DNA from: Actinomadura soli
Lineage (GTDB): Bacteria; Actinomycetota; Actinomycetes; Streptosporangiales; Streptosporangiaceae
Direction: 5' to 3'
NCBI RefSeq assembly: GCF_005889715.1
Contig: NZ_VCKW01000001.1
Location: forward strand, 62,001 to 126,000
DNA length: 64,000 nt
Below, piece after piece: positions 1 to 11,028 of this stretch. Position 1 is the first letter of the stretch. The number at the start of each line of letters is the position of its first letter. A program made the translations under genes and the position numbers. A model generated the notes under the pieces. It was not told the origin of the DNA. It saw only the letters and a list, made by a program, of their open reading frames with translations, and searched no databases.

Positions 1-539
1 GCGAGCAACTGCCCGTGTTCCGGCCGCCGCTGAACATGCAGGCCCTGTTCGGCGAACCCGAACTCGGCGACACGGGGGAGCTGGGGCTGACCGTCCGGTA
101 CCTGACCCCGCACAACAAGTGGTCGATCCATTCGGAGTACCAGGACAACCTGTTCATGCTGTCGCTGGCGCGCGGCGGCCCGGCGATCTGGATGAGCGGC
201 GCCGACGCGGCGAAGATCGGCGTTCGCGACAACGACTGGATCGAGGCGGTGAACCGCAACGGCGTGGTCGTCGCCCGCGCGATCGTGTCCCACCGGATGC
301 CGGAGGGGACGGTGTACATGTACCACGCCCAGGACCGGCTGATCGACGTGCCGCGGGCCGAGACGTCCGGGCGCCGCGGCGGCATCCACAACTCCCTGAC
401 CCGGTTGCTGATCAAGCCGTCCCATCTGATCGGCGGGTACGCGCAGCTGTCGTTCGCGTTCAACTACCTCGGCCCGACCGGCAACCAGCGCGACGAGGTC
501 ACCGTGATCCGCCGCCGCTCACAGGAGGTGACCTACTAA
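1..539 (+). CDS. narG: Respiratory nitrate reductase alpha subunit, C-terminal part (partial)
   Basis: This is the last ~178 residues of the catalytic molybdenum subunit of the membrane-bound nitrate reductase, which reduces nitrate to nitrite with electrons arriving through NarH and NarI. The reading frame is open from the left edge, so the start, the 4Fe-4S site and most of the cofactor-binding domains lie outside the window. What is visible resembles the C-terminal molybdopterin dinucleotide-binding domain, with TPHNKWSIHSEY and WMSGADAAKIGVRDND, and ends in a TAA. The following narH, narJ and narI in standard order make the assignment secure. Confidence 0.95.
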   Translation, partial: EQLPVFRPPLNMQALFGEPELGDTGELGLTVRYLTPHNKWSIHSEYQDNLFMLSLARGGPAIWMSGADAAKIGVRDNDWIEAVNRNGVVVARAIVSHRMPEGTVYMYHAQDRLIDVPRAETSGRRGGIHNSLTRLLIKPSHLIGGYAQLSFAFNYLGPTGNQRDEVTVIRRRSQEVTY

Positions 540-553
540 TGCGCGAAGCGTTC

Positions 554-578
554 GGGGGGTCTGGGGGACCTTCCCCAG
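554..578 (+). repeat. G-rich hairpin repeat, copy 1 (narG-narH junction)
   Basis: A GGGGGGT leader is followed by an imperfect hairpin (CTGGGG at 561-566 and CCCCAG at 573-578). It belongs to the eight-copy family described in the findings. It sits between the narG stop and the Shine-Dalgarno sequence of narH, displacing the two genes that would otherwise overlap. Confidence 0.7.
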
Positions 579-589
579 GAGGGACACGG

Positions 590-2323
590 ATGCGGGTCAT
601 GGCGCAGATGGCGATGGTGATGAACCTCGACAAGTGCATCGGGTGCCACACCTGCTCGGTCACCTGCAAGCAGGCGTGGACCAACCGGTCCGGCGTGGAG
701 TACGTGTGGTTCAACAACGTCGAGACGCGTCCCGGGCAGGGCTACCCCCGCCGCTACGAGGACCAGGAACGCTGGCGCGGCGGCTGGACGCTCAACCGGC
801 GCGGGCGCCTCGCGCTCAAGGGCGGCGGCAGGCTCCGCAAGCTGCTGACCATCTTCGCCAACCCGAAGCTGCCGGGCATCGCCGACTACTACGAGCCCTG
901 GACCTACGACTACGAAACCCTCACCAACGCCCCGCTGCAGGAGCACACCCCGGTCGCCCGCCCAAAGTCGCTGCTGTCGGGCAAGGACATGAAGATCTCC
1001 TGGTCGGCGAACTGGGACGATGACCTGGGCGGCTCGACCGAGCACGGTGACCAGGACGTGGTGCTGGCGCGGATCTCCGACAAGGTGAAGCTGGAGTTCG
1101 ACCAGACCTTCATGTTCTACCTGCCGCGGATCTGCGAGCACTGCCTCAACCCGTCGTGCGCGGCGTCGTGCCCGTCCGGGGCGATCTACAAGCGGACCGA
1201 GGACGGCATCGTGCTCGTCGACCAGGACCGCTGCCGGGGCTGGCGGATGTGCGTGTCCGGCTGCCCGTACAAGAAGATGTACTTCAACCACCGCACCGGC
1301 AAGGCGGAGAAGTGCACGTTCTGCTTCCCGCGCGTCGAGGTCGGCATCCCCACCGTCTGCTCGGAGACCTGCGTGGGACGGCTGCGCTACATCGGCCTCG
1401 TCCTCTACGACGCCGACAAGGTGCTGGAAGCCGCGTCCACCCCCGATGACACCGGCCTGTACGAGGCGCAGCGCGAGGTGTTCCTCGACCCGAACGACCC
1501 GCGGGTCGTGGCCGCGGCCGAACGCGAGGGCATCCCCGGCGACTGGATCGAGGCGGCGCAGCGCTCCCCGGTGTACGCACTCATCAACACCTACAAGGTC
1601 GCGCTGCCGCTGCATCCCGAGTACCGGACGATGCCGATGGTCTGGTACATCCCGCCGCTGTCACCGGTGGTGGACGTCGTCCGCGACACCGGCCACGACG
1701 CCGAGAGCGCCGGGAACCTGTTCGCCGCGATCGACGCGCTGCGCATCCCCATCGAGTACCTGGCCGAACTGTTCACCGCCGGGGACACCGCGCCGGTCGA
1801 CGCCGTCCTGCACCGCCTGGCCGCGATGCGCGCCTACATGCGCGACCTCAACCTCGGCCGCGACCCCGACGAGGCCATCCCCGCCCGCGTCGGGATGACC
1901 GGCGAGGCGATGTACGACATGTACCGGCTGCTGGCGCTCGCCAAGTACGACGAGCGGTACGTCATCCCCACCGCGCACGCCGAACAGGCCCACAACCTCG
2001 AAGAACTCGCCACCGACTGCGCGCTGAACTACGAGGGCGGGCCCGGCATGGGCGGCGCGGGCTCCGGCGGCGGGTCGGGGCCGTTCGGCGAGGCGTCCGG
2101 CGGCGCCAATCCGATCGCGGTGGAGAACTTCCACATGCTGCGCCAGCGGCAGACCGCCGACCATCCCGCAGACCCCGCCGACAAGCGGCACCGCGTCAAC
2201 CTCCTCAACTGGGACGGCAAAGGCGCCCCCGCCGGACTCTTCCCCGCGCGGACCAAGGACGACGGCCCCGAAGGGAACCCGCCCGCCGACTCCGGCGACG
2301 CCGGAACGGAGCCGAAACCGTGA
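590..2323 (+). CDS. narH: Respiratory nitrate reductase beta (iron-sulfur) subunit
   Basis: NarH passes electrons from the NarI haems to NarG through four iron-sulfur clusters on the cytoplasmic face. The 577-residue product has the expected cysteine groups: CIGCHTCSVTC at residues 16-26, CEHC...C...C near 182-194, and CRGWRMCVSGC at 215-225. Trp218 stands where a cysteine would be in a 4Fe-4S site, the hallmark of the NarH 3Fe-4S centre. The start at 590 is chosen because AGGAGGG lies just upstream and the N-terminus then matches NarH proteins (MVMNLDKCIGCHTC). An in-frame ATG at 539 overlapping the narG stop would add 17 low-complexity residues encoded by a repeat element. The C-terminal ~90 residues are a Gly/Pro-rich extension. 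Confidence 0.95.
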   Translation: MRVMAQMAMVMNLDKCIGCHTCSVTCKQAWTNRSGVEYVWFNNVETRPGQGYPRRYEDQERWRGGWTLNRRGRLALKGGGRLRKLLTIFANPKLPGIADYYEPWTYDYETLTNAPLQEHTPVARPKSLLSGKDMKISWSANWDDDLGGSTEHGDQDVVLARISDKVKLEFDQTFMFYLPRICEHCLNPSCAASCPSGAIYKRTEDGIVLVDQDRCRGWRMCVSGCPYKKMYFNHRTGKAEKCTFCFPRVEVGIPTVCSETCVGRLRYIGLVLYDADKVLEAASTPDDTGLYEAQREVFLDPNDPRVVAAAEREGIPGDWIEAAQRSPVYALINTYKVALPLHPEYRTMPMVWYIPPLSPVVDVVRDTGHDAESAGNLFAAIDALRIPIEYLAELFTAGDTAPVDAVLHRLAAMRAYMRDLNLGRDPDEAIPARVGMTGEAMYDMYRLLALAKYDERYVIPTAHAEQAHNLEELATDCALNYEGGPGMGGAGSGGGSGPFGEASGGANPIAVENFHMLRQRQTADHPADPADKRHRVNLLNWDGKGAPAGLFPARTKDDGPEGNPPADSGDAGTEPKP

Positions 2324-3006
2324 GGATCAGACCCGCGAGCAAGCCGGGCTTCACCGACGCCCAGCTCGCCACGGCGTGGCAGGCCGCGTCACTGCTGCTC
2401 GGCTACCCCGACGAGGAACTGCTCGGACGGCGCCCCCTGCTCCGCCGCGCCGCCATCGCGCTGCCCGCACCGGCCGGGACACCGCTGACCCGCTTCCTCG
2501 ACCACCTGGACGCCACACCGCCGCCCGACCTGGCAGCCGACTACGTCGCCACGTTCGACCACCGCAAGCGCTGCTGCCTCTACCTCACCTACTACGCCTA
2601 CGGCGACACCCGGAAACGTGGAATGGCGCTGCTGCGATTCAAGCAGGCGTACCAGGCGGCCGGGCTCGTCCTGGACGACACCGAACTTCCCGACCACCTC
2701 GCCGTGGTGCTGGAGTTCGCCGCGACCGGCGACCTCGCGGAAGGACGGCGCCTCCTCCTCGAATACCGCGCCGGACTCGAACTGCTGTGCCTCGCCCTCA
2801 CCGAGTCCGCCTCGCCGTGGACGGCCGTCCTGGACGCCGTCGCCGCGACCCTCCCACCGCTCACCGGCCGCACCGAGGACGCCGTCGCCCGCCTCATCGC
2901 CGAAGGCCCGCCCGAAGAGCAGGTCGGCCTGGCACCCTATGGGCCCGGCGCCGCGGACTCCGGCCCCGTCCTCCTGCCCGACCCGGTCTTCGGAGGCCGC
3001 TCATGA
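2320..3006 (+). CDS. narJ: Nitrate reductase molybdenum cofactor assembly chaperone
   Basis: NarJ is the dedicated cytoplasmic chaperone that binds apo-NarGH and allows molybdenum cofactor insertion before the complex docks on NarI. The 228-residue product has the TorD/NarJ-like helical character with YVATFDHRKRCCLYLTYYAY, a stretch typical of the family. It starts with GTG inside the narH stop (GTGA overlap) and ends in an ATGA overlap with narI, so translation is likely coupled through the operon. Confidence 0.93.
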   Translation: MRIRPASKPGFTDAQLATAWQAASLLLGYPDEELLGRRPLLRRAAIALPAPAGTPLTRFLDHLDATPPPDLAADYVATFDHRKRCCLYLTYYAYGDTRKRGMALLRFKQAYQAAGLVLDDTELPDHLAVVLEFAATGDLAEGRRLLLEYRAGLELLCLALTESASPWTAVLDAVAATLPPLTGRTEDAVARLIAEGPPEEQVGLAPYGPGAADSGPVLLPDPVFGGRS

Positions 3007-3722
3007 CAACCCTGCTCTGGGTCGCGCTGCCCTACGTCACCATCGCGGTGTTCGTCCTCGGGCACATCTGGCGGTACCGGTACGACAAGTTCGGCTGGAC
3101 GACCCGCTCGTCCCAGCTCTACGAGAGCCGCCTGCTGCGCGTCGGCAGCCCGCTGTTCCACTTCGGCATCCTGGTCGTCCTGCTCGGCCACATCGGAGGA
3201 CTGATCATCCCGGACCGCTGGACGGACGCCGTGGGAATCAGCGAGCACATGTACCACGTCATCGCGGTGACCCTCGGCACCATCGCGGGCTTCTGCACTC
3301 TGGCCGGCCTGGCCATCCTCATCTACCGGCGGCGCACCGTCGGCCCGGTCTTCTCCGCGACGACCCGCAACGACAAGCTCATGTACGCGGTGCTGACGCT
3401 GACCATCCTGCTCGGGCTGTCCGCCACCGTCGCCGCCAACCTCGTCGACGGCGGATACAACTACCGCGAGACGGTCTCACCCTGGTTCCGGTCGATCTTC
3501 TACTTCCAGCCCGACCCCGACCTCATGACCGGCGTCCCGATCCTGTTCCAGCTCCACGCCCTCAGTGCGCTCGCGCTGTTCTGCGTCTGGCCGTTCACAC
3601 GCCTCGTGCACATGCTCACCGCCCCGGTCGGCTACCTCACCCGCCCTTACATCGTCTACCGCAGCCGCGACGAGCAACTCGGCATGCACCGCACCCCACG
3701 GGGATGGGAACGGATCAGCTGA
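3003..3722 (+). CDS. narI: Respiratory nitrate reductase gamma subunit (cytochrome b)
   Basis: NarI is the di-haem membrane anchor that oxidises quinol and feeds electrons to NarH. The product is 239 residues, close to the usual ~225-240, and shows about five hydrophobic segments. His residues suitable as haem ligands occur in the first helix (GHIWRY), in LFHFGILVVLLGHIGG, and in the last helices (FQLHALSALALF, RLVHML). It is the last gene of the visible nar operon. No nitrate transporter or regulator follows. Confidence 0.95.
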   Translation: MTTLLWVALPYVTIAVFVLGHIWRYRYDKFGWTTRSSQLYESRLLRVGSPLFHFGILVVLLGHIGGLIIPDRWTDAVGISEHMYHVIAVTLGTIAGFCTLAGLAILIYRRRTVGPVFSATTRNDKLMYAVLTLTILLGLSATVAANLVDGGYNYRETVSPWFRSIFYFQPDPDLMTGVPILFQLHALSALALFCVWPFTRLVHMLTAPVGYLTRPYIVYRSRDEQLGMHRTPRGWERIS

Positions 3723-3824: not shown

Positions 3825-4214
3825 GTGCTCGCCGTCACCGCCGCCGACGTCCGGATCTTCCTTCACGTGCTCGCCGCGACGATCTGGGTCGGCGGGCAGA
3901 TCACGCTCGGCGCGCTCGTCCCGGCGCTGCGCGGCTACGAGGGCGTCACCAAGGTCGCCGCGCGCCGCTTCAGCACGATCGCCTGGCCCGCGTTCGGTGT
4001 CCTCGTGCTCACCGGCGTCTGGAACCTCACCGAGGGCAACCTGGGCGACGCCGCGCGGCCGACCCTGGAGGTGAAGCTGGTGTTCGTGCTGCTGTCCGGG
4101 TCCGCCGCGTTCCTGCACGCCCGCGCCACGTCCAAGGCCGGCCTCGCCGCCTGGGGCGCGCTCGGCGCGGTGGGCGCGCTCGCGGCGCTGTTCTTCGGCG
4201 TCCAGCTCGGCTGA
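3825..4214 (+). CDS. CopD-like small integral membrane protein
   Basis: A 129-residue membrane protein with about four hydrophobic helices. The first helix carries FLHVLAATIWVGGQI, a His plus WVGG pattern typical of CopD-like and related DUF families. Function is not established; members are linked to copper or haem handling but many are uncharacterised. The GTG at 3825 is chosen because GGAGG ends 6 nt upstream; an in-frame GTG at 3738 would add a polar Pro/Arg-rich leader. It stands between nar and the sugar cluster, 59 nt before the next gene, and may be independent of both. Confidence 0.65.
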   Translation: MLAVTAADVRIFLHVLAATIWVGGQITLGALVPALRGYEGVTKVAARRFSTIAWPAFGVLVLTGVWNLTEGNLGDAARPTLEVKLVFVLLSGSAAFLHARATSKAGLAAWGALGAVGALAALFFGVQLG

Positions 4215-4260
4215 TCCGCGGCCGGGAGGTCCGGCGCACCGGCCGGGCGCGTAGATCGTC

Positions 4261-4266
4261 TAGGTT
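4261..4266 (+). promoter_or_regulatory. Predicted leaderless -10 (TAGGTT, 7 nt before ATG)
   Basis: TAGGTT ends exactly 7 nt before the ATG of the downstream oxidoreductase, which has no Shine-Dalgarno sequence. This spacing places transcription initiation at the start codon, as is common for actinobacterial leaderless genes. Confidence 0.55.
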
Positions 4267-4273
4267 TGGCCCC

Positions 4274-5152
4274 ATGAGCGACTCTGTGGCGGTGGGGCTG
4301 GTCGGCGCAGGGCCCTGGGCCCGGATGGTGCACGCGCCCGTGCTGGCGGCGGGGCCGTCCACGCGGCTGGCGGGCGTGTGGGCGCGGCGGCCCGAGGCGT
4401 CCGCCGAGCTGGCCGGCGAGCACGGCGCGCCCTCGTTCGCCCGGATCGAGGAGCTGTTCGACGCGTGCGAGGCCGTCGCGTTCTGCGTCCCGCCGGACGT
4501 GCAGGCCGACCTCGCCGCCCGGGCCGTCCGCGCGGGCAAGGCCGTCCTGCTGGAGAAGCCCCTCGCCATGGACCTGGACGGCGCCCGCCGCCTCGCGGAC
4601 GCCGTCGCCGAGGCGGGCGCCGTCTCGCAGATGGTGTTCAGCATCCGCTACTCGCGCGCCGCCCGCGCCTTCGTCGAGCGGGCGCGCGACCTGGAGCCGT
4701 TCGGCGGCCTCGGCACGTTCATCGCGTCGGCGCTGAGGGGCGGGCCGTTCGCCACCCCGTGGCGGCTGGAGAAGGGCCCGCTGCTCGACTACGGCCCGCA
4801 CATCATCGACCTCCTGGACGCCTCGCTCGGACGGGTCACCGCCGTCCACGCGCACGGTGACCGGCTGGCCTGGGTGGCGCTGACGCTGGAGCACGAGGGC
4901 GGCGCGACCAGCCAGGTGGCCCTGTCGATGGCGCGGGCGGACGACGACCCCGCCCCGCCCTGTGTCGAGGTCTACGGGCGGAAGGGGAACGCGCGGATCG
5001 ACTGGAGCGAACTGGACGACGACGCGTTCCCGGCGATGGCCGCCGAGTTCGCCGCCGCCGTGCGCGGCGGGCCCCGGTCCCCGCTCGACGCCGCGCACGG
5101 CCTGCGCATCCAGGAGACACTCGCCGCGGCGGAGGTGCGGTTCACCAGCTGA
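4274..5152 (+). CDS. Gfo/Idh/MocA family NAD(P)-dependent oxidoreductase
   Basis: A 292-residue dehydrogenase of the Gfo/Idh/MocA family, which oxidises or reduces sugars, inositols or their derivatives. The N-terminal Rossmann motif is VGLVGAGPWARM (residues 7-18), and the family EKP signature (LLEKPLAMD) lies near residues 92-100. The following HIIDLLD carries a histidine in the position used for catalysis in relatives. At 292 residues it is short compared with the usual 330-390. It heads a tightly packed run with a rhodanese, two FGGY kinases, a phosphatase and a hydroxyacid dehydrogenase, suggesting carbohydrate catabolism; the substrate cannot be read from sequence. Confidence 0.85.
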   Translation: MSDSVAVGLVGAGPWARMVHAPVLAAGPSTRLAGVWARRPEASAELAGEHGAPSFARIEELFDACEAVAFCVPPDVQADLAARAVRAGKAVLLEKPLAMDLDGARRLADAVAEAGAVSQMVFSIRYSRAARAFVERARDLEPFGGLGTFIASALRGGPFATPWRLEKGPLLDYGPHIIDLLDASLGRVTAVHAHGDRLAWVALTLEHEGGATSQVALSMARADDDPAPPCVEVYGRKGNARIDWSELDDDAFPAMAAEFAAAVRGGPRSPLDAAHGLRIQETLAAAEVRFTS

Positions 5153-5167
5153 GACCCGCCGGGATGC

Positions 5168-5173
5168 CATGCT
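5168..5173 (+). promoter_or_regulatory. Predicted leaderless -10 (CATGCT, 7 nt before ATG)
   Basis: CATGCT is separated by 7 nt from the ATG at 5181, which supports that ATG rather than the one at 5169 and suggests an internal promoter inside the sugar cluster. Confidence 0.45.
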
Positions 5174-5180
5174 GGACCCC

Positions 5181-5576
5181 ATGGCTCGCACCATTGATGA
5201 GGTCCTCGCCGGCGCACGCGAACGGCTCGAACGCCTCGACCCGGCCCAGGCCCACGCGGAATCGCTCGACGGCGCGGTGCTGGTCGACATCCGCCCCGCC
5301 GCCCAGCGGGCGGACGAGGGCGAGGTGCCCGGCGCGCTGGTCGTGGAACGCAACGTCCTCGAATGGCGGTTCGACCCCACGTCCAGCGCCCGGCTGCCCC
5401 AGGCGACCGGGCACGGCCTGCGCGTCATCGTGCTGTGCTCCGAGGGCTACACCTCCAGCCTGGCGGCCGCGTCGCTGCACGACCTCGGGCTGACCCGCGC
5501 CACCGACGTCGTCGGCGGCTTCCGCGCGTGGCGCGCCGCCGGACTCCCGACGACCGCCGCCGGCCCGGCGGGCTGA
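5181..5576 (+). CDS. Rhodanese-like domain protein
   Basis: A 131-residue single-domain rhodanese-like protein. It shows the conserved VLVDIRP near residue 35 and an active-site loop CSEGYTSS (about residues 88-95), with the catalytic Cys as first residue, then GGFRAWRAAGLP at the end of the fold. Rhodaneses carry persulfide sulfur or act as sulfur transferases; the physiological partner here is unknown. The start at 5181 is favoured by the leaderless -10 and by homology-like appearance of MARTIDEVL. Its TGA overlaps the ATG of the next kinase, so it belongs to the cluster in spite of its different chemistry. Confidence 0.8.
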   Translation: MARTIDEVLAGARERLERLDPAQAHAESLDGAVLVDIRPAAQRADEGEVPGALVVERNVLEWRFDPTSSARLPQATGHGLRVIVLCSEGYTSSLAAASLHDLGLTRATDVVGGFRAWRAAGLPTTAAGPAG

Positions 5577-7069
5577 TGGCGGTCGTCTGCGTCGACGCCG
5601 GCACCACGATGATCAAGGCGGTGGGCTACGCCCCCGACGGCGCCGAGCTGGCCGTCGTCCGGCGGGCCACCGAGGTGGCACGGCCCGAGCCCGGCCACGC
5701 CGAGCAGGACATGGCGTCGGTCTGGCACGCCGTGGCGGACGCGGTCCGCGCGGTCACCGCGGAGATCGGCGGCGGCGTCGACCTGGTGGCGCTCACCGCG
5801 CAGGGCGACGGCGCCTGGCTGGTTGACGGCGACGGCGCCCCCACCGGCCCGGCGATCCTGTGGAACGACGGCCGCGCCGCCCCGATCGTGGCGGGCTGGG
5901 CGGCGTCCGGCGTGCTGGAGGAGGCGTTCCGCGTCAACGGGTCGCTGACCTTCGCGGGACTGCCGAACGCGATCCTGACCTGGCTCCGCGAGCACGACCC
6001 GGACCGGCTCGCCCGGTCGGCCGCGTCCCTGACCTGCGGCGGCTGGATCTTCTCCCGCCTCACCGGGGAGATCGCCGCGGACGGCTCGGACGCGTCCGCC
6101 CCCTTCACCGACATCGCCCGGCGCCGCTACTCCGACGCACTGCTCGGCCTCTACGGCATGGAATGGGCGCGGCGGCTCCTGCCCGAGCAGCGCGGCGACG
6201 ACCGGCGCGCCGCCCCGCTGACCGCGCCCGCCGCGGACGGGCTCGGCCTCCCGCCCGGGATCCCCGTCGTGCTCGCCCCGTACGACATCGCGTCCACCGC
6301 GATCGGTGTCGGCGCCGTCGACACGGGCCAGTCCTGCACGATCCTCGGCACGACGCTGTGCACGGAGACGGTCGTGGACGCCCCGCGCCTCACCGGCGAA
6401 CCGTCCGGCCTGACGGTCGCGATGGGGCTGCCGGGCCGCTACCTGCGGGCGTTCCCGACGCTCGCCGGCGGCCAGGTCGTCGACTGGGCCTGCCGCCTGC
6501 TCGGCCTCTTCATCCCCGCCGACCTCGCCGAACTCGCCGCCCGGGCCCCGGTGGGCGCCGACGGCCTGGTGTTCCTGCCCTACCTGTCGCCCGCCGGTGA
6601 GCGGGCCCCGTTCCTCGACCCGCACGCGCGCGGCGCGTTCCACGGCCTGACCGTCGACCACGAGCGCGAGCACATCGCCCGCGCCGTCCTCGAAGGGCTC
6701 AGCCTGGTCGTCCGCGACTGCCTGAGCGCGGCGGAGGCCCGTCCGACCGAGCTGCGCGTGAGCGGCGGCGGTTCGGCGAGCCCTGTGTGGCTGCGCATGC
6801 TGGCCGACGTCATCGGCGTCCCCGTCGTCCGGTCGGCGGACTCCGAGGCCGGGGCGCGGGGCGCGTTCATCGCCGGCCTGCTCGCCACCGGACGCGCCGG
6901 CGACGCGCGCGAGGCCGCCGACGCCTACGTCCGTCCGGGCGACACCTACGAGCCCGACCCTGGACGCGCCGCCCACTACGCGGAGGCTTACCAGGACTTC
7001 CTGGCCGTTCGCACCGCGACGGCGTCCGCGTGGCCCACCCTCGCTGACCTCCGCGCTCGCGGGGCGTGA
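5576..7069 (+). CDS. FGGY-family carbohydrate kinase (first of two)
   Basis: A 497-residue sugar kinase of the FGGY family, which phosphorylates pentoses, polyols, glycerol and similar substrates with ATP. The N-terminal VCVDAGTTMIKAVGY is the phosphate-binding loop of the actin-like fold, LILWND-type sequence appears as GPAILWNDGRAAP, and the C-terminal domain has LRVSGGGSASPVWLRMLADV, the family ATP-site signature. Start ATG overlaps the rhodanese stop (TGATG). The second FGGY kinase starts within its stop codon. Two non-identical kinases in tandem suggest two successive or parallel phosphorylations; substrate unknown. Confidence 0.9.
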   Translation: MAVVCVDAGTTMIKAVGYAPDGAELAVVRRATEVARPEPGHAEQDMASVWHAVADAVRAVTAEIGGGVDLVALTAQGDGAWLVDGDGAPTGPAILWNDGRAAPIVAGWAASGVLEEAFRVNGSLTFAGLPNAILTWLREHDPDRLARSAASLTCGGWIFSRLTGEIAADGSDASAPFTDIARRRYSDALLGLYGMEWARRLLPEQRGDDRRAAPLTAPAADGLGLPPGIPVVLAPYDIASTAIGVGAVDTGQSCTILGTTLCTETVVDAPRLTGEPSGLTVAMGLPGRYLRAFPTLAGGQVVDWACRLLGLFIPADLAELAARAPVGADGLVFLPYLSPAGERAPFLDPHARGAFHGLTVDHEREHIARAVLEGLSLVVRDCLSAAEARPTELRVSGGGSASPVWLRMLADVIGVPVVRSADSEAGARGAFIAGLLATGRAGDAREAADAYVRPGDTYEPDPGRAAHYAEAYQDFLAVRTATASAWPTLADLRARGA

Positions 7070-8547
7070 GAGTCGTGCCCGGTGCGGAGGCCGTGTGGGT
7101 CGGGGTCGATCTCGGGACGCAGGGCGCCCGCGCGCTGGTGGTGACCGCGTCCGGCGACGTCGTCGGGTCCGGCGCCCGGAAGCTGACCGGGCGGCGGGAC
7201 GGGCACCGCCACGAGCAGGACCCGGAGCACTGGTGGACGGCCGCGTCCGCCTCCTGCCGCCAGGCGCTCGTGGACGTCCCGGCCGAGGCGGTTCGGGCCG
7301 TCGCGGTCGACGGGACGTCCGGGACCGTCCTGCTCACCGACGACCGCGGGCATCCGCTGACCCCGGCGCTCATGTACGACGACACGCGCGCCGCCGGGCA
7401 CGTCGACCGGGTGAACGACGCGGGCGGCGAGCTGTGGCGGCGGCTCGGCTACCAGCGCATGCAACCGTCCTGGGCGCTGCCGAAACTGCTGTGGCTGCTG
7501 GACCACCACACGGGCGGCGGCGCCCGGCTGGCGCACCAGGCCGACTTCGTGAACCGGCGGCTGACCGGCCACCCGGTGGCGGCGGATCTCAGCAACGCGC
7601 TGAAGACCGGCGCCGACCTCATCGCCGAGGCGTGGCCCGACGACGTCCTCGACGCGCTGGGCGTCCCCGCCGGACTGCTCCCTCCGCTTGAGCGGTCCGG
7701 CACGAGGCTGGGCGCGGTCTGCGCGCGCGCCGCCGAGGCGACCGGCATTCCCGAAGGAACCCCTGTCATCGCCGGGGCCACCGACGGATGCGCCGCCCAG
7801 CTCGGCGCGGGCCGGCTCGCCCCCGGCTCCTGGAACTCCGTCCTGGGCACGACGCTGGTCCTCAAGGGGGTCAGCGACGACCTCGTCCACGACCCGTTCG
7901 GCGTCGTCTACTCGCACAAGGCACCGGACGGGCGGTGGCTGCCCGGCGGCGCGTCCAGCACGGGCGCGGGCGCCATCGCCCGCGACTTCCCGGGTCGGGA
8001 CCTCACCGACCTCGACCGCCGCGCCGCCGCGCACGAACCGTCCGCCGCGCTCACCTACCCGCTGGTCTCGGCGGGGGAACGGTTCCCGTTCCTCGCGCCC
8101 GGCGCCCGCGGGTTCCGGCTGGACGGCACGGACGATGAGGCCGACGACTTCGCGTCCGTCCTCCAGGGCGTCGGCTACCTCGAACGGCTCTGCTTCGACC
8201 ACCTCGACCTGCTCGGCGCCCCCACCGGCGGGGACCTGACGCTCACCGGCGGGGCGGCGCGGAGCGAGTACTGGTGCCGGTTGCGCGCCGACATCCTCGG
8301 CCGCCCGGTCGTCGTGCCGAGACGGGCCGAGCCCGCGCTCGGCGCCGCCGTGCTCGCCGCGTCGCCCGGACGCGACGTCGCCGAGGTCGCGGCCCGGATG
8401 GTCGCGGTCAGGACGGTGATCGACCCGCGTCCGGAGAAGACCGGCCTGTTCGACGCCCCCTACCTGCGCCTGGTCGGCGAGGTGGAACGTCGCGGCTGGC
8501 TGCCCGCGGAGACCGCCGCGCACGCACGCGAGAGGACCCGCGCGTGA
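7066..8547 (+). CDS. FGGY-family carbohydrate kinase (second of two; xylulokinase-like)
   Basis: A 493-residue FGGY kinase, clearly diverged from its neighbour. It has VWVGVDLGTQGARALVV near residue 10, AVDGTSGTVLL, ALMYDDTRA in the sugar-binding region, and LTLTGGAARSEYWCRLRADI as ATP-domain signature. The DGTSGT and MYDDTR patterns recall xylulokinase-type members. It begins with GTG in a GTGA overlap with the previous kinase (a GTG 9 nt later is an alternative). The 16-nt gap to the phosphatase implies one transcript. Confidence 0.88.
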   Translation: MRVVPGAEAVWVGVDLGTQGARALVVTASGDVVGSGARKLTGRRDGHRHEQDPEHWWTAASASCRQALVDVPAEAVRAVAVDGTSGTVLLTDDRGHPLTPALMYDDTRAAGHVDRVNDAGGELWRRLGYQRMQPSWALPKLLWLLDHHTGGGARLAHQADFVNRRLTGHPVAADLSNALKTGADLIAEAWPDDVLDALGVPAGLLPPLERSGTRLGAVCARAAEATGIPEGTPVIAGATDGCAAQLGAGRLAPGSWNSVLGTTLVLKGVSDDLVHDPFGVVYSHKAPDGRWLPGGASSTGAGAIARDFPGRDLTDLDRRAAAHEPSAALTYPLVSAGERFPFLAPGARGFRLDGTDDEADDFASVLQGVGYLERLCFDHLDLLGAPTGGDLTLTGGAARSEYWCRLRADILGRPVVVPRRAEPALGAAVLAASPGRDVAEVAARMVAVRTVIDPRPEKTGLFDAPYLRLVGEVERRGWLPAETAAHARERTRA

Positions 8548-8563
8548 AAGGCGGAACCCTCCG

Positions 8564-9178
8564 ATGACGCGTCTCGTCCTCGTCCGGCACGGGGAGACCG
8601 AATGGCACGCCGAGAACCGGTACGCCGGGACCAGCGACGTCGCGCTGACCCCGCGCGGGCTCGGCCAGGCCCGCGCGCTCGCCGCCTGGGCGCGGACGGC
8701 CCGGCCCGACGCGGTGTGGTGCTCGGACCTGACGCGCGCCCGGGAGACCGCGGCCCCGTCCGCCGCCGCGATCGGCGCGGAACCGCACGTCGACGGACGC
8801 CTCCGCGAACTCGACTTCGGCCAGGGCGAAGGACTCACGCGCGCCGACATGGAACGCAGGTTCCCCGACGCGCTGCGCGCCTTCCTGGCCGATCCCGTCG
8901 CCTGCCACCTGCCCGGCGGCGAGGACCCGAACGCGGCGGTGCGCCGCCACATCGCCTGCCTGGACGACATCGCCGCACGGCATCCCGGCGGCCGCGTCCT
9001 CGTCGTCGCGCATTCGACCGCGATCCGGCTCGTCCTGTGCGGGCTGCTGGGGATCCCGCTCCGGGACTACCGGCGGCGGTTCCCGACGCTCGGCAACTGC
9101 GCGCTGACCGAGATCCGGCTCCGCGACGGCGACGCCGCCCTGCTGGAGTTCAACACCCCGCTGGGGAGCCCTGAATGA
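8564..9178 (+). CDS. Histidine phosphatase family protein (phosphoglycerate mutase-like)
   Basis: A 204-residue member of the histidine phosphatase superfamily. The catalytic RHGE motif is at residues 8-11 (LVLVRHGETEWH). The second histidine lies in VVAHSTAIRLVLCGLLG near residue 148, and ELDFGQGEG carries the acid residue. Such proteins dephosphorylate sugar phosphates or other small phosphorylated metabolites. Placed between a sugar kinase and a hydroxyacid dehydrogenase, with an ATGA overlap to the latter, it probably removes a phosphate from a pathway intermediate or acts as a safety phosphatase. Confidence 0.88.
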   Translation: MTRLVLVRHGETEWHAENRYAGTSDVALTPRGLGQARALAAWARTARPDAVWCSDLTRARETAAPSAAAIGAEPHVDGRLRELDFGQGEGLTRADMERRFPDALRAFLADPVACHLPGGEDPNAAVRRHIACLDDIAARHPGGRVLVVAHSTAIRLVLCGLLGIPLRDYRRRFPTLGNCALTEIRLRDGDAALLEFNTPLGSPE

Positions 9179-10233
9179 CGACCCGCGTCCTCGCGGCGGG
9201 CGACCATTTCGTCCGCAACGACCTGCTCATCGCCGCCCTGCGCGCGGAGGCGCCGGACGGCCTCGCGTTCACGGAGATCACGCTGCCGTGGCCGGTGGAG
9301 CCGTTCGGGCGCGTCGCCGAGGTGGACGAGGCGTCCGGCACCGAGGACGAGCTGATCGGGGCGCTGCGCGGCGCCGCGATCTGCGTCACCCAGATGGCAC
9401 CCCTGACCAGGCGGATCCTGGACGCGTCCCCCGATCTGCGGCTGTTCGGCATCGGTCGCGGCGGCCCCGTCAACGCCAACCTGGACGCGGCGACCGAGCA
9501 CGGCGTCGCCGTCTGCTACGCGCCCGGACGCAACGCGGGCGCGACCGCCGAGCACACCCTCGGGCTGATCCTCGCGGCGGCGCGGCGCATCCCGCAGACG
9601 CACGCCGACCTGCGCGCCGGGCACTGGGGCGGCGACCACTACCGCTACGGCGACGTCGGCATCGAGCTGTCCGGCAGCACGGCCGGCCTGGTCGGCTGCG
9701 GCGCGGTCGGCCGCCGCGTCGCCCGGATGCTCGCCGCGCTCGGCGCCCGCGTCCTCGTCCACGACCCGTACCTGGACGACCTCGGCGACTTGGGCGATCT
9801 CGCGGGCATCGTCGAGCCGGTGCCGCTGGACGAACTGCTCGCGCGGGCGCGGATCGTCTCGCTGCACGCCCGCGCCACGCCGGAGACCGCCGGGATGATC
9901 GGCGCCGCGCAGATCGCCGCGATGCCGCCCGGGTCGATCATCGTCAACTGCGCCCGCGGCTCGCTGCTGGACTACGAGGCGGTCTGCGACGCGGCCGAGT
10001 CCGGGCACCTGTCCGGCGCGGCCTTCGACGTCTTCCCCGAGGAGCCGGTCCCGCCGGGCTCACGGCTGCTGACCGTCCCGAACATCGTCGTCACCCCGCA
10101 CCTGGCCGGTGCCAGCAAGCAGACCGCCGCCAACGCCGCCCGGATCATCGCCCGTGACGTCGGCCGCCACCTGCGCGGCGAGCCGCTCGTCCACTGCGCC
10201 AACCCGGAGGCGGCGGTGCGGGGGCCGGTGTAG
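9175..10233 (+). CDS. D-isomer-specific 2-hydroxyacid dehydrogenase (SerA-like)
   Basis: A 352-residue NAD-dependent 2-hydroxyacid dehydrogenase. The Rossmann motif is LVGCGAVGRR near residue 170, the central signature reads IIVNCARGSLLDYEAV near 260, and the catalytic His is in VVTPHLAG near 306. NAGATAEHTLGLIL is also typical of the family. It lacks the ACT/ASB domains of biosynthetic 3-phosphoglycerate dehydrogenase. As last gene of the run it most likely handles a hydroxyacid or its phosphate made from the kinased sugar. Confidence 0.9.
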   Translation: MTTRVLAAGDHFVRNDLLIAALRAEAPDGLAFTEITLPWPVEPFGRVAEVDEASGTEDELIGALRGAAICVTQMAPLTRRILDASPDLRLFGIGRGGPVNANLDAATEHGVAVCYAPGRNAGATAEHTLGLILAAARRIPQTHADLRAGHWGGDHYRYGDVGIELSGSTAGLVGCGAVGRRVARMLAALGARVLVHDPYLDDLGDLGDLAGIVEPVPLDELLARARIVSLHARATPETAGMIGAAQIAAMPPGSIIVNCARGSLLDYEAVCDAAESGHLSGAAFDVFPEEPVPPGSRLLTVPNIVVTPHLAGASKQTAANAARIIARDVGRHLRGEPLVHCANPEAAVRGPV

Positions 10234-10536
10234 GCGCGCGGGAGCGGCCGGGTCCCGGGGCCGGTGCAAGGGAGTGGTATCCACCTCGGGACCCGGTCGT
10301 CCCACTGCCCTCGCGGTGCTGGGTCGCCGTGTCGGAACGGCCGGGGGCGTACGGCCGGGAATCCTCCTGGACGAAACGCGAGGAATTCCGAGCCTAACTC
10401 CGGCCGTCAGCGCTTCGTAATGACAGGGTGCTTACAGTTGTTTCCCACTGGTGTATAGGGCGCGCCGTGGCAAAATCACCCGTCGGAATCGTTTCCAGCG
10501 GGCGATGGGGCCGACGCCCAGACCACAATGGGACAC
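10234..10536. other. Intergenic region between hydroxyacid dehydrogenase and phosphoesterase
   Basis: No gene is seen in these ~300 bases. TTACAG (10432-10437) and TATAGG (10454-10459) separated by 16 nt could be a vegetative promoter reading rightward, but a long leader would result. A CACAAT at 10524 gives the better candidate for the next gene. Confidence 0.35.
10524..10529 (+). promoter_or_regulatory. Predicted leaderless -10 (CACAAT, 7 nt before ATG)
   Basis: CACAAT followed by 7 nt and the ATG at 10537. The same hexamer and spacing occur before the gene at 47769. Confidence 0.4.
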
Positions 10537-11028
10537 ATGAGAGCCGTGGTCGTCTCCGACACCCACGCGCCCCGGCGCTGGAAGTCGTGCCCGCCGCGGG
10601 TGGCCGGGCACCTGCGCGGCGCCGACGTGATCCTGCACGCGGGCGACGTGTGCACGGCGTCCGTCCTGGACGAGCTCGCGGAGTACGCGCCCGTCCACGC
10701 CGTCCTCGGCAACAACGACGGGCCGGACGTCGCCGAATGGGGCGCCCCCGAACGCCTCGAACTCGACCTGGACGGCCTCGCGGTCGCGATGGTCCACGAC
10801 AGCGGCCAGGCCAGCGGCCGCACGGCCCGGATGCGCCGCTGGTTCCCCGGCGCCGACCTCGTCGTGTTCGGGCACTCGCACATCCCGCTGGACGAGACCG
10901 GCGACGGCGTCCGCGTCTTCAACCCCGGATCGCCCACCGACCGGCGCCGCCAGCCCCACGGCACCATCGGCCTCCTCGACATCCGCGCCGGCCGCCTCAC
11001 CGCCGCGAGAATCGTCGCCGTCACCTGA
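10537..11028 (+). CDS. YfcE/MJ0936-type metallophosphoesterase
   Basis: A 163-residue phosphoesterase of the calcineurin-like YfcE family, hydrolysing phosphodiesters in vitro in characterised relatives. All metal motifs are present in order: VSDTH near the N-terminus, HAGDV, LGNND, a VHD, and FGHSH near residue 115. The ATG at 10537 is preferred over the one at 10528 because of the leaderless -10 and because MRAVVVSDTH then begins directly with the first strand. No operon partner; the next genes are on the other strand. Physiological substrate unknown. Confidence 0.85.
   Translation: MRAVVVSDTHAPRRWKSCPPRVAGHLRGADVILHAGDVCTASVLDELAEYAPVHAVLGNNDGPDVAEWGAPERLELDLDGLAVAMVHDSGQASGRTARMRRWFPGADLVVFGHSHIPLDETGDGVRVFNPGSPTDRRRQPHGTIGLLDIRAGRLTAARIVAVT

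Follow-up and report, generated by a model that had tools for sequence, protein, structure and literature searches.

Genes of the locus and their conservation

The window analysed here, a 64,000-nucleotide stretch of Actinomadura soli DNA whose contig is 159 kb long and whose draft genome comprises 9.04 Mb, carries at positions 4274-10233 six genes on the same strand, two of which encode FGGY kinases. The initial annotation described them as one compact cluster acting on a phosphorylated sugar acid or polyol, devoid of transporter and regulator, and holding a rhodanese that seemed out of place. Its gene families and its short gaps and overlaps were borne out by the coordinates and by Pfam, and its interpretation as a whole was partly supported. 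The features are listed below, where K1 and K2 are the two kinases and HADH is the D-2-hydroxyacid-dehydrogenase-family protein.

4274-5152, + strand: Gfo/Idh/MocA oxidoreductase (Pfam PF01408, PF22725); flanking gene
5181-5576, + strand: rhodanese-domain protein (Pfam PF00581); flanking gene, its stop overlapping the K1 start
5556-5576, unstranded: probable deletion scar, where three close relatives have ~4.4-4.5 kb of extra DNA (blastn)
5576-7069, + strand: K1, EryA-branch FGGY kinase (Pfam PF00370, PF02782, tree, QGDG-W motif); predicted polyol kinase
7066-8547, + strand: K2, FGGY kinase of the RbtB/SePSK type (Pfam, tree, ligand positions); predicted D-ribulose-type ketose kinase
8564-9178, + strand: histidine phosphatase, branch 1 (Pfam PF00300, His_Phos_1); predicted ketose-phosphate phosphatase paired with K2
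9175-10233, + strand: HADH of the RbtA type (Pfam 2-Hacid_dh); predicted oxidoreductase of the K1 product

From the oxidoreductase to HADH, successive genes are spaced by a 28 nt gap, a 1 nt overlap (TGATG), a 4 nt overlap, a 16 nt gap and a 4 nt overlap; two of the six gene starts were refined from the sequence. None of the six genes scored up to the cut-off of an NCBIfam model, and no transporter or regulator adjoins them in the window flanks.

The last four genes (K1, K2, phosphatase and HADH, hereafter the core) are a widely shared actinobacterial set. In a class-wide sample searched with a match limit of E <= 1e-75, in which only five HADH and three K2 candidates were scored per genome and the lists were compared by eye, K2 was found in 42/394 genomes and HADH in 45/394, and all of the 42 genomes with K2, including that of the window, were among the 45 with HADH. 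In a sample of nearer relatives, K2 orthologs (at least 59% identity) were present in 23/59 genomes, and HADH in 20 of those 23. Since K2 was accompanied by HADH so regularly in both samples, the last four genes form a unit beyond chance; no probability was attached to this co-occurrence because the genomes are related.

Neighbourhoods were then marked by tblastn in 119 loci (referred to by L numbers), which after removal of 11 duplicates left 108 unique loci, 87 of them with the full core, the window included. These loci were chosen through K1, K2 or HADH matches, so that the presence of the core in them is partly a product of selection, the unselected figure being that of the class-wide sample. 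Markers covered the transporter kinds already seen, up to ~10 kb on each side, with distances taken between match ends and not gene ends; for some relatives the gene calls came from a simple in-house codon-usage caller. The K2 and phosphatase matches lay at most 300 nt apart in 80/87 full-core loci and the K1 and HADH matches in 39/87, and the block order K1-K2-phosphatase-HADH was found in 45/87. A rhodanese match was near 11/87 full-core loci and an oxidoreductase match near 7/87, indicating that these two are flanking genes. The single six-gene cluster proposed initially thus holds for its last four members and not for its first two; the oxidoreductase is probably not a pathway member, and the rhodanese does appear out of place.

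The nine closest named HADH genes were all from Actinomadura (84-89% identity). An actinobacterial-type DeoR-K1-K2-phosphatase-HADH block with a 59% identical HADH was also observed on a contig titled as a Proteobacteria metagenome-assembled genome (L225), and is either misbinned or transferred. The pair HADH-K1 occurred without K2 in two genomes (G289 and G330; L177 and L178) and K2 occurred alone in L074 and L075. The lone K2 genes were considered as a clue to function and dropped, their neighbours looking, from the starts of their sequences, like a siderophore-type uptake set; L179 was dropped as a core locus, its kinase being 31-32% identical to both K1 and K2. No description of the cluster in actinobacteria was found in a literature search of open-licence papers, judged by titles and the starts of abstracts.

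Regulators and transporters beside the core

Three relatives, Actinomadura sp. WMMA1423 (L193), Actinomadura sp. K4S16 (L194) and A. mexicana (L201), align with the window to either side of the point where rhodanese and K1 meet, and all of them have ~4.4-4.5 kb of extra DNA between the two genes. In L194, blastn aligned window positions 4000-5556 with 398-1947 and 5561-10210 with 6397-11027, leaving the extra block between 1947 and 6397; L193 and L201 gave similar results. The block encodes a DeoR regulator, a sugar-binding protein, an ABC ATPase and a permease, as indicated by markers in the three loci and by Pfam and NCBIfam in L063. Searching the whole window assembly with the L063 regulator and binding protein as queries (the permease and ATPase were not searched for) recovered no ortholog of either, the best matches being 33% and 40% identical, respectively. 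As three relatives keep the block and no ortholog was found elsewhere in the assembly, the absence of transporter and regulator reads as a local loss: it looks like the window lineage lost an importer and a regulator that its relatives keep beside the set. The missing block may also reflect a misassembly.

Of the full-core loci, 72/87 had a DeoR match in the vicinity and 74/87 a marker for a transporter or GH78 cluster, the kinds differing between loci, and both marker types were lacking in 6/87, the window among them. The initial statement that the cluster has no transporter and no regulator is therefore true of the window and is not an inherent property of the set. Around two loci counted as lacking a transporter (L154 and L156), ABC-type genes of other sorts are present.

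In many Actinomadura and relatives, the transporter by the core is a CUT2 ABC system, whose permease is GguB-like in L063. The MFS carrier of L176 is a member of the pentitol-carrier family RbtT/DalT/CsbX (516.7 bits; NCBIfam cut-off, 375). Carriers resembling it were near 16/87 full-core loci and adjoin the module in named Streptomyces (for example L212-L219); in Streptomyces sp. KN37, an annotated MFS transporter, DeoR, K1, K2, phosphatase and HADH stand in one row. A UgpB-type binding protein and a GDPD phosphodiesterase occur in 6/8 Kribbella loci and in several Jiangella loci, these families having been tested on L163 and L164. In L163 the GDPD enzyme is probably cytosolic, its domain beginning as early as residue 8, which suggests phosphodiester import. 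Within Kribbella, Jiangella and relatives, a GDPD gene by the module, often accompanied by a UgpB-type binding protein, was observed in several of L159-L169 and in L227-L229, L231, L233, L234 and L243. In some genomes from the genus of the window (L078-L082), the module stands beside a GH78 rhamnosidase set, to which GH106 and a binding protein of the SBP_bac_1 family belong in the tested L080. In L084, K2 and DeoR alone stand beside GH78.

Enzyme families and the Sinorhizobium meliloti locus

A plasmid search led to a locus of S. meliloti Ak57 (L186) with a homologous set. Its order is sugar-binding transcriptional regulator, sugar permease, two ABC ATPases, FGGY kinase, 2-hydroxyacid dehydrogenase, class II aldolase, glycerol-3-phosphate-dehydrogenase-like protein, second class II aldolase, second FGGY kinase, unannotated stretch, sugar-phosphate isomerase/epimerase, DeoR, triose-phosphate isomerase and RpiB. 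Passages of PMC3599248 list the S. meliloti genes eryD, mptABCDE, eryA, rbtA, fucA1, eryB, lalA, rbtB, rbtC, eryC, eryR, tpiB and rpiB, with lalA-rbtB-rbtC as a suboperon, and state that eryA serves erythritol, adonitol and L-arabitol, whereas lalA-rbtABC serve adonitol and L-arabitol but not erythritol. The number of enzyme genes is ten in both, and by elimination and adjacency we assign HADH as RbtA, the second kinase as RbtB and the unannotated stretch as RbtC; the RbtC frame is interrupted in the Ak57 record, and both pieces match the HAD-IIA family TIGR01459. A D-galactosamine identity for the locus (Smb21373/21374, from passages of PMC4961836) was considered and dropped on the gene content of L186, which fits erythritol, adonitol and L-arabitol instead.

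As in the actinobacterial core, the EryA-type kinase of S. meliloti adjoins an RbtA-type HADH and the RbtB-type kinase adjoins a phosphatase. The phosphatases themselves are unrelated, an HAD-IIA RbtC there and a histidine phosphatase in actinobacteria occupying the same slot: the HAD-IIA piece had a match in 0/87 full-core loci, and the histidine phosphatase had none in the S. meliloti locus at E 1e-5. The transporters of the S. meliloti locus are also of other kinds than those of the actinobacterial loci, and none adjoins the window set. The erythritol/adonitol/L-arabitol locus of S. meliloti is the closest genetically studied counterpart of the core. The initial annotation would have been overturned by orthologous clusters tied to an established pathway; this applies in part, the genes of the set reported in PMC3599248 being homologs and not proven orthologs.

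K1 is 31.9% identical to S. meliloti EryA. In a midpoint-rooted tree of 53 rows (20 of 65 clustered loci, 14 reference rows and the window; some E. coli rows were long), 21 K1 sequences, three EryA sequences and an FGGY kinase of Paracoccus denitrificans on the EryA side formed one clade (99/98), apart from E. coli XylB, LyxK, FucK, RhaB, LsrK, GlpK and AraB; reference rows were few and the EryA rows were named by us. A QGDG-W motif is common to K1 and EryA, where XylB has QMHGAT, LyxK QGKGLF and the gluconate kinase 3gbt, the second-best solved relative of K1, QMHS. K1 is predicted from this grouping and motif to be an EryA-type polyol kinase. Identities as xylulokinase XylB (249.3 against an NCBIfam cut-off of 380.25) and FGGY gluconokinase (155.2 against 648.55) were rejected, and neither K1 nor K2 approached the NCBIfam rhamnulokinase cut-off.

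K2, 34.9% identical to S. meliloti RbtB, groups with it in the tree (100/98; the RbtB row was flagged as long). Its best solved relatives, at moderate similarity (154 bits), are SePSK and AtXK-1, and its residues D15, T18, S85, K180 and D240 correspond to D8, T11, S72, K163 and D221 of SePSK, which are ribulose ligand positions, although Ser222 of SePSK is Gly241 in K2. According to passages of PMC4880283, SePSK activity was stimulated by D-ribulose, the effect on AtXK-1 being limited. K2 is thus predicted to be a D-ribulose-type ketose kinase; it was rejected as a xylulokinase XylB (201.6 against the NCBIfam cut-off of 380.25). The RHG and later His motifs of the phosphatase are conserved, and its identity as alpha-ribazole phosphatase CobC was rejected (131.1 against an NCBIfam cut-off of 162.9).

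HADH is 42.6% identical to S. meliloti RbtA and keeps R261, E290 and H309, which we take to be the catalytic residues of the family. R95, R119 and R233 are common to RbtA and to relatives from P. denitrificans and Haladaptatus, and are absent from E. coli SerA, PdxB and GhrB. A signature defined in this analysis and not in print (R95-GGPVN100, G118-R119-N120 and R233) was kept, for each element, in at least 95% of 59 actinobacterial rows and also in the three alphaproteobacterial rows; the 59 rows count the window twice, as do the conservation tables of the kinases and the phosphatase. The three arginines suggest a second negative charge on the substrate, such as a phosphate. The Arg-Ser pair of SerA and PdxB is Thr72-Gln73 in HADH, and with this pair missing and a score of 220.7 against an NCBIfam cut-off of 454 bits, 3-phosphoglycerate dehydrogenase SerA was rejected. 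On plasmid 1 of P. denitrificans PD1222 (L192), an RbtA-type HADH was observed with a FucA-like aldolase and an FGGY kinase, in a run that also holds CoA transferases, an acetolactate-synthase-like protein and a rhodanese.

Among other known systems, the Klebsiella ribitol and arabitol operons combine, like this set, two FGGY kinases with RbtT/DalT-type carriers; they differ in that a polyol dehydrogenase acts first and that they are not known to include a phosphatase or HADH. Mycobacterium tetritol pathways employ DhaK-type kinases and RpiB-type isomerases. Genes of these two types, absent from the window cluster, also stand beside HADH-K1 in some relatives: L176-L178, which are without K2, have a parallel layout in which HADH-K1 is accompanied by genes for an HAD phosphatase, a DhaK-type kinase and an RpiB/DerI-type isomerase.

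A proposed pentitol pathway and its alternatives

We consider it somewhat probable that positions 5576-10233 are an actinobacterial pentitol module, of the ribitol or L-arabitol type, which is the counterpart of S. meliloti eryA-rbtB-rbtC-rbtA and was set beside the oxidoreductase-rhodanese pair through loss of DeoR and the ABC importer. From the gene identities, linkage, family groupings, motifs and missing block observed above, we infer its substrates, the reaction of HADH and the order of the steps. K1 would phosphorylate an imported linear polyol (a pentitol), and HADH, using NAD, would oxidise the K1 product to a ketose phosphate. The phosphate, placed by the kinase, would sit on the wrong end, so the histidine phosphatase would strip it from the ketose phosphate, and K2 would phosphorylate the free ketose at the other end; the resulting D-ribulose 5-phosphate, or a related compound, would feed the pentose phosphate pathway. 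In favour of this module are the presence of HADH in all 42 K2 genomes of the class-wide sample, the pentitol-type MFS carrier of L176 with similar carriers near 16/87 full-core loci, the grouping of K1 with EryA and of K2 with RbtB, the motif and ligand positions of the kinases, the three arginines of HADH, the S. meliloti genetics and the parallel layout of L176-L178. The window copy may still work on a substrate brought in by another carrier.

Such a relocation of the phosphate would account for the joint travel of K2 and the phosphatase, for the unrelated phosphatase in the S. meliloti slot and for the HAD phosphatase, DhaK-type kinase and RpiB carried by L176-L178. Assigning the oxidation to HADH is the boldest step of the proposal, and draws on the near absence of EryB, which leaves HADH as the constant oxidoreductase. 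A broader proposal, which we regard as tentative and rather doubtful, is that the RbtA-type HADH is an NAD-dependent polyol-phosphate dehydrogenase, new for the fold, and that it acts in a route by which kinase, dehydrogenase, phosphatase and second kinase together move the phosphate. This route would have been built at least three times: with HAD-IIA and RbtB in rhizobia, with histidine phosphatase and K2 in actinobacteria, and with HAD, a DhaK-type kinase and RpiB for four-carbon polyols. If the pentitol proposal is true, a shared and generically annotated module becomes a testable gene set for actinobacterial pentitol use, the kinase-phosphatase adjacency is explained and a large dehydrogenase family gains a candidate substrate for one of its orphan branches. 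As of 2011, according to passages of PMC3245297, EryA and D-ribulokinase were found only in Alphaproteobacteria.

Several observations weigh against the pentitol pathway. The chemistry of the HADH family acts on 2-hydroxy or 2-keto acids, and we know of no member that oxidises polyol phosphates. The identity of K1 and K2 to EryA and RbtB, whose names in L186 were assigned by us from gene content and order, is no more than 32-35%. Among the full-core loci, an EryB-like polyol-phosphate dehydrogenase was near 1/87 and LalA near 0/87, so that the actinobacterial route is not a copy of that of S. meliloti; EryC and TpiB were likewise near 0/87, and the sole core locus with an EryB-like match (L170) has it adjoining K1, apart from HADH. 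K2 was present without HADH in three near-sample genomes (G011, G017 and G019). The binding protein of the CUT2 system, tested in L063, scored best against the XylF/ChvE aldose binders, and the pathway does not predict the GDPD phosphodiesterase near 15/87 full-core loci or the GH78 rhamnosidase near 5/87. Passages of PMC3245297 derive EryA from the RhaB/FucK side, which the K1-EryA tree does not show, and a BLAST search of Propionibacterium freudenreichii with the S. meliloti L-arabitol proteins found nothing that fitted the phenotypes (PMC4437456). As of 2011, according to passages of PMC3245297, EryA and D-ribulokinase were found only in Alphaproteobacteria.

The alternatives draw on the same material. 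The family chemistry of HADH, with its Arg, Glu and His kept, and the second place of 3gbt among the solved relatives of K1 would suit a sugar-acid pathway in which HADH reduces a 2-keto-aldonate to an aldonate that one FGGY kinase then phosphorylates, leaving a side product to the phosphatase and the second kinase. However, K1 falls far short of the gluconokinase cut-off (155.2 against 648.55) and groups with EryA, and its QGDG motif differs from the QMHG of XylB and the QMHS of 3gbt; the MFS neighbour tested (L176) is a pentitol-type carrier, and the family scans, which covered some but not all neighbours, recognised no aldonate dehydratase. We hold this pathway to be quite unlikely; of the two possibilities raised initially, a phosphorylated sugar acid or a polyol, the linkage of two kinases, a phosphatase and a dehydrogenase stands, and the polyol is favoured. 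The core might otherwise serve two separate functions, K2 and the phosphatase providing control or repair of a ketose or ketose phosphate while K1 and HADH serve another substrate. The pairs do travel as units, given the short K2-phosphatase and K1-HADH distances (80/87 and 39/87), and HADH-K1 without K2 and K2 alone both occur (G289 and G330; L074 and L075), but HADH accompanies K2 in all of the 42 K2 genomes of the class-wide sample and 45/87 loci interleave the pairs in one block, which leaves a division of this kind unlikely. A side route for a 6-deoxy sugar, L-rhamnose, is very improbable. It was considered because some clusters carry alpha-L-rhamnosidases along with an importer of their own, GH78 adjoining the module in L078-L082 and K2 in L084, and GH106 being present in L080, but GH78 is near only 5/87 full-core loci, neither kinase approaches the rhamnulokinase cut-off and the transporters elsewhere are of other kinds.

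It is also rather unlikely, though compatible with a pentitol role for the module at large, that the window copy is a functionless remnant left by the loss of regulator and importer. The low identity (33% and 40%) of the nearest proteins in the assembly to the regulator and the binding protein that were lost and the place of the window among the 6/87 loci without either marker fit a remnant, but all four core genes are full length, and the 40% paralog may belong to an importer that serves instead. Over the core genes, 73 codon changes on the window branch alter the amino acid and 137 are silent, compared with 45 and 106 on the branch of the relative; 137 codons differing three ways were set aside in this count, and the oxidoreductase (for which a closer outgroup was used) and the rhodanese were left out. 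The excess of silent changes suggests that selection was kept, although it says little about the time after the loss, since part of the branch may predate it.

The sigma-70 promoter scan gave 0 sites against 0.0 expected and the terminator scan 1 against 0.9 expected. Downstream of HADH lies a YfcE-type phosphodiesterase gene; in the interval between the two (window 10233-10528) relatives hold more DNA that is absent from the window, ~2.7 kb in all in L193, and L063 has two small conserved genes there. The upstream flank encodes a small protein with a CopD match under the Pfam cut-off, and positions 1-3722 of the window look, from their translations only, like genes for components of a nitrate reductase: its iron-sulphur beta chain, its assembly chaperone and its cytochrome gamma chain.

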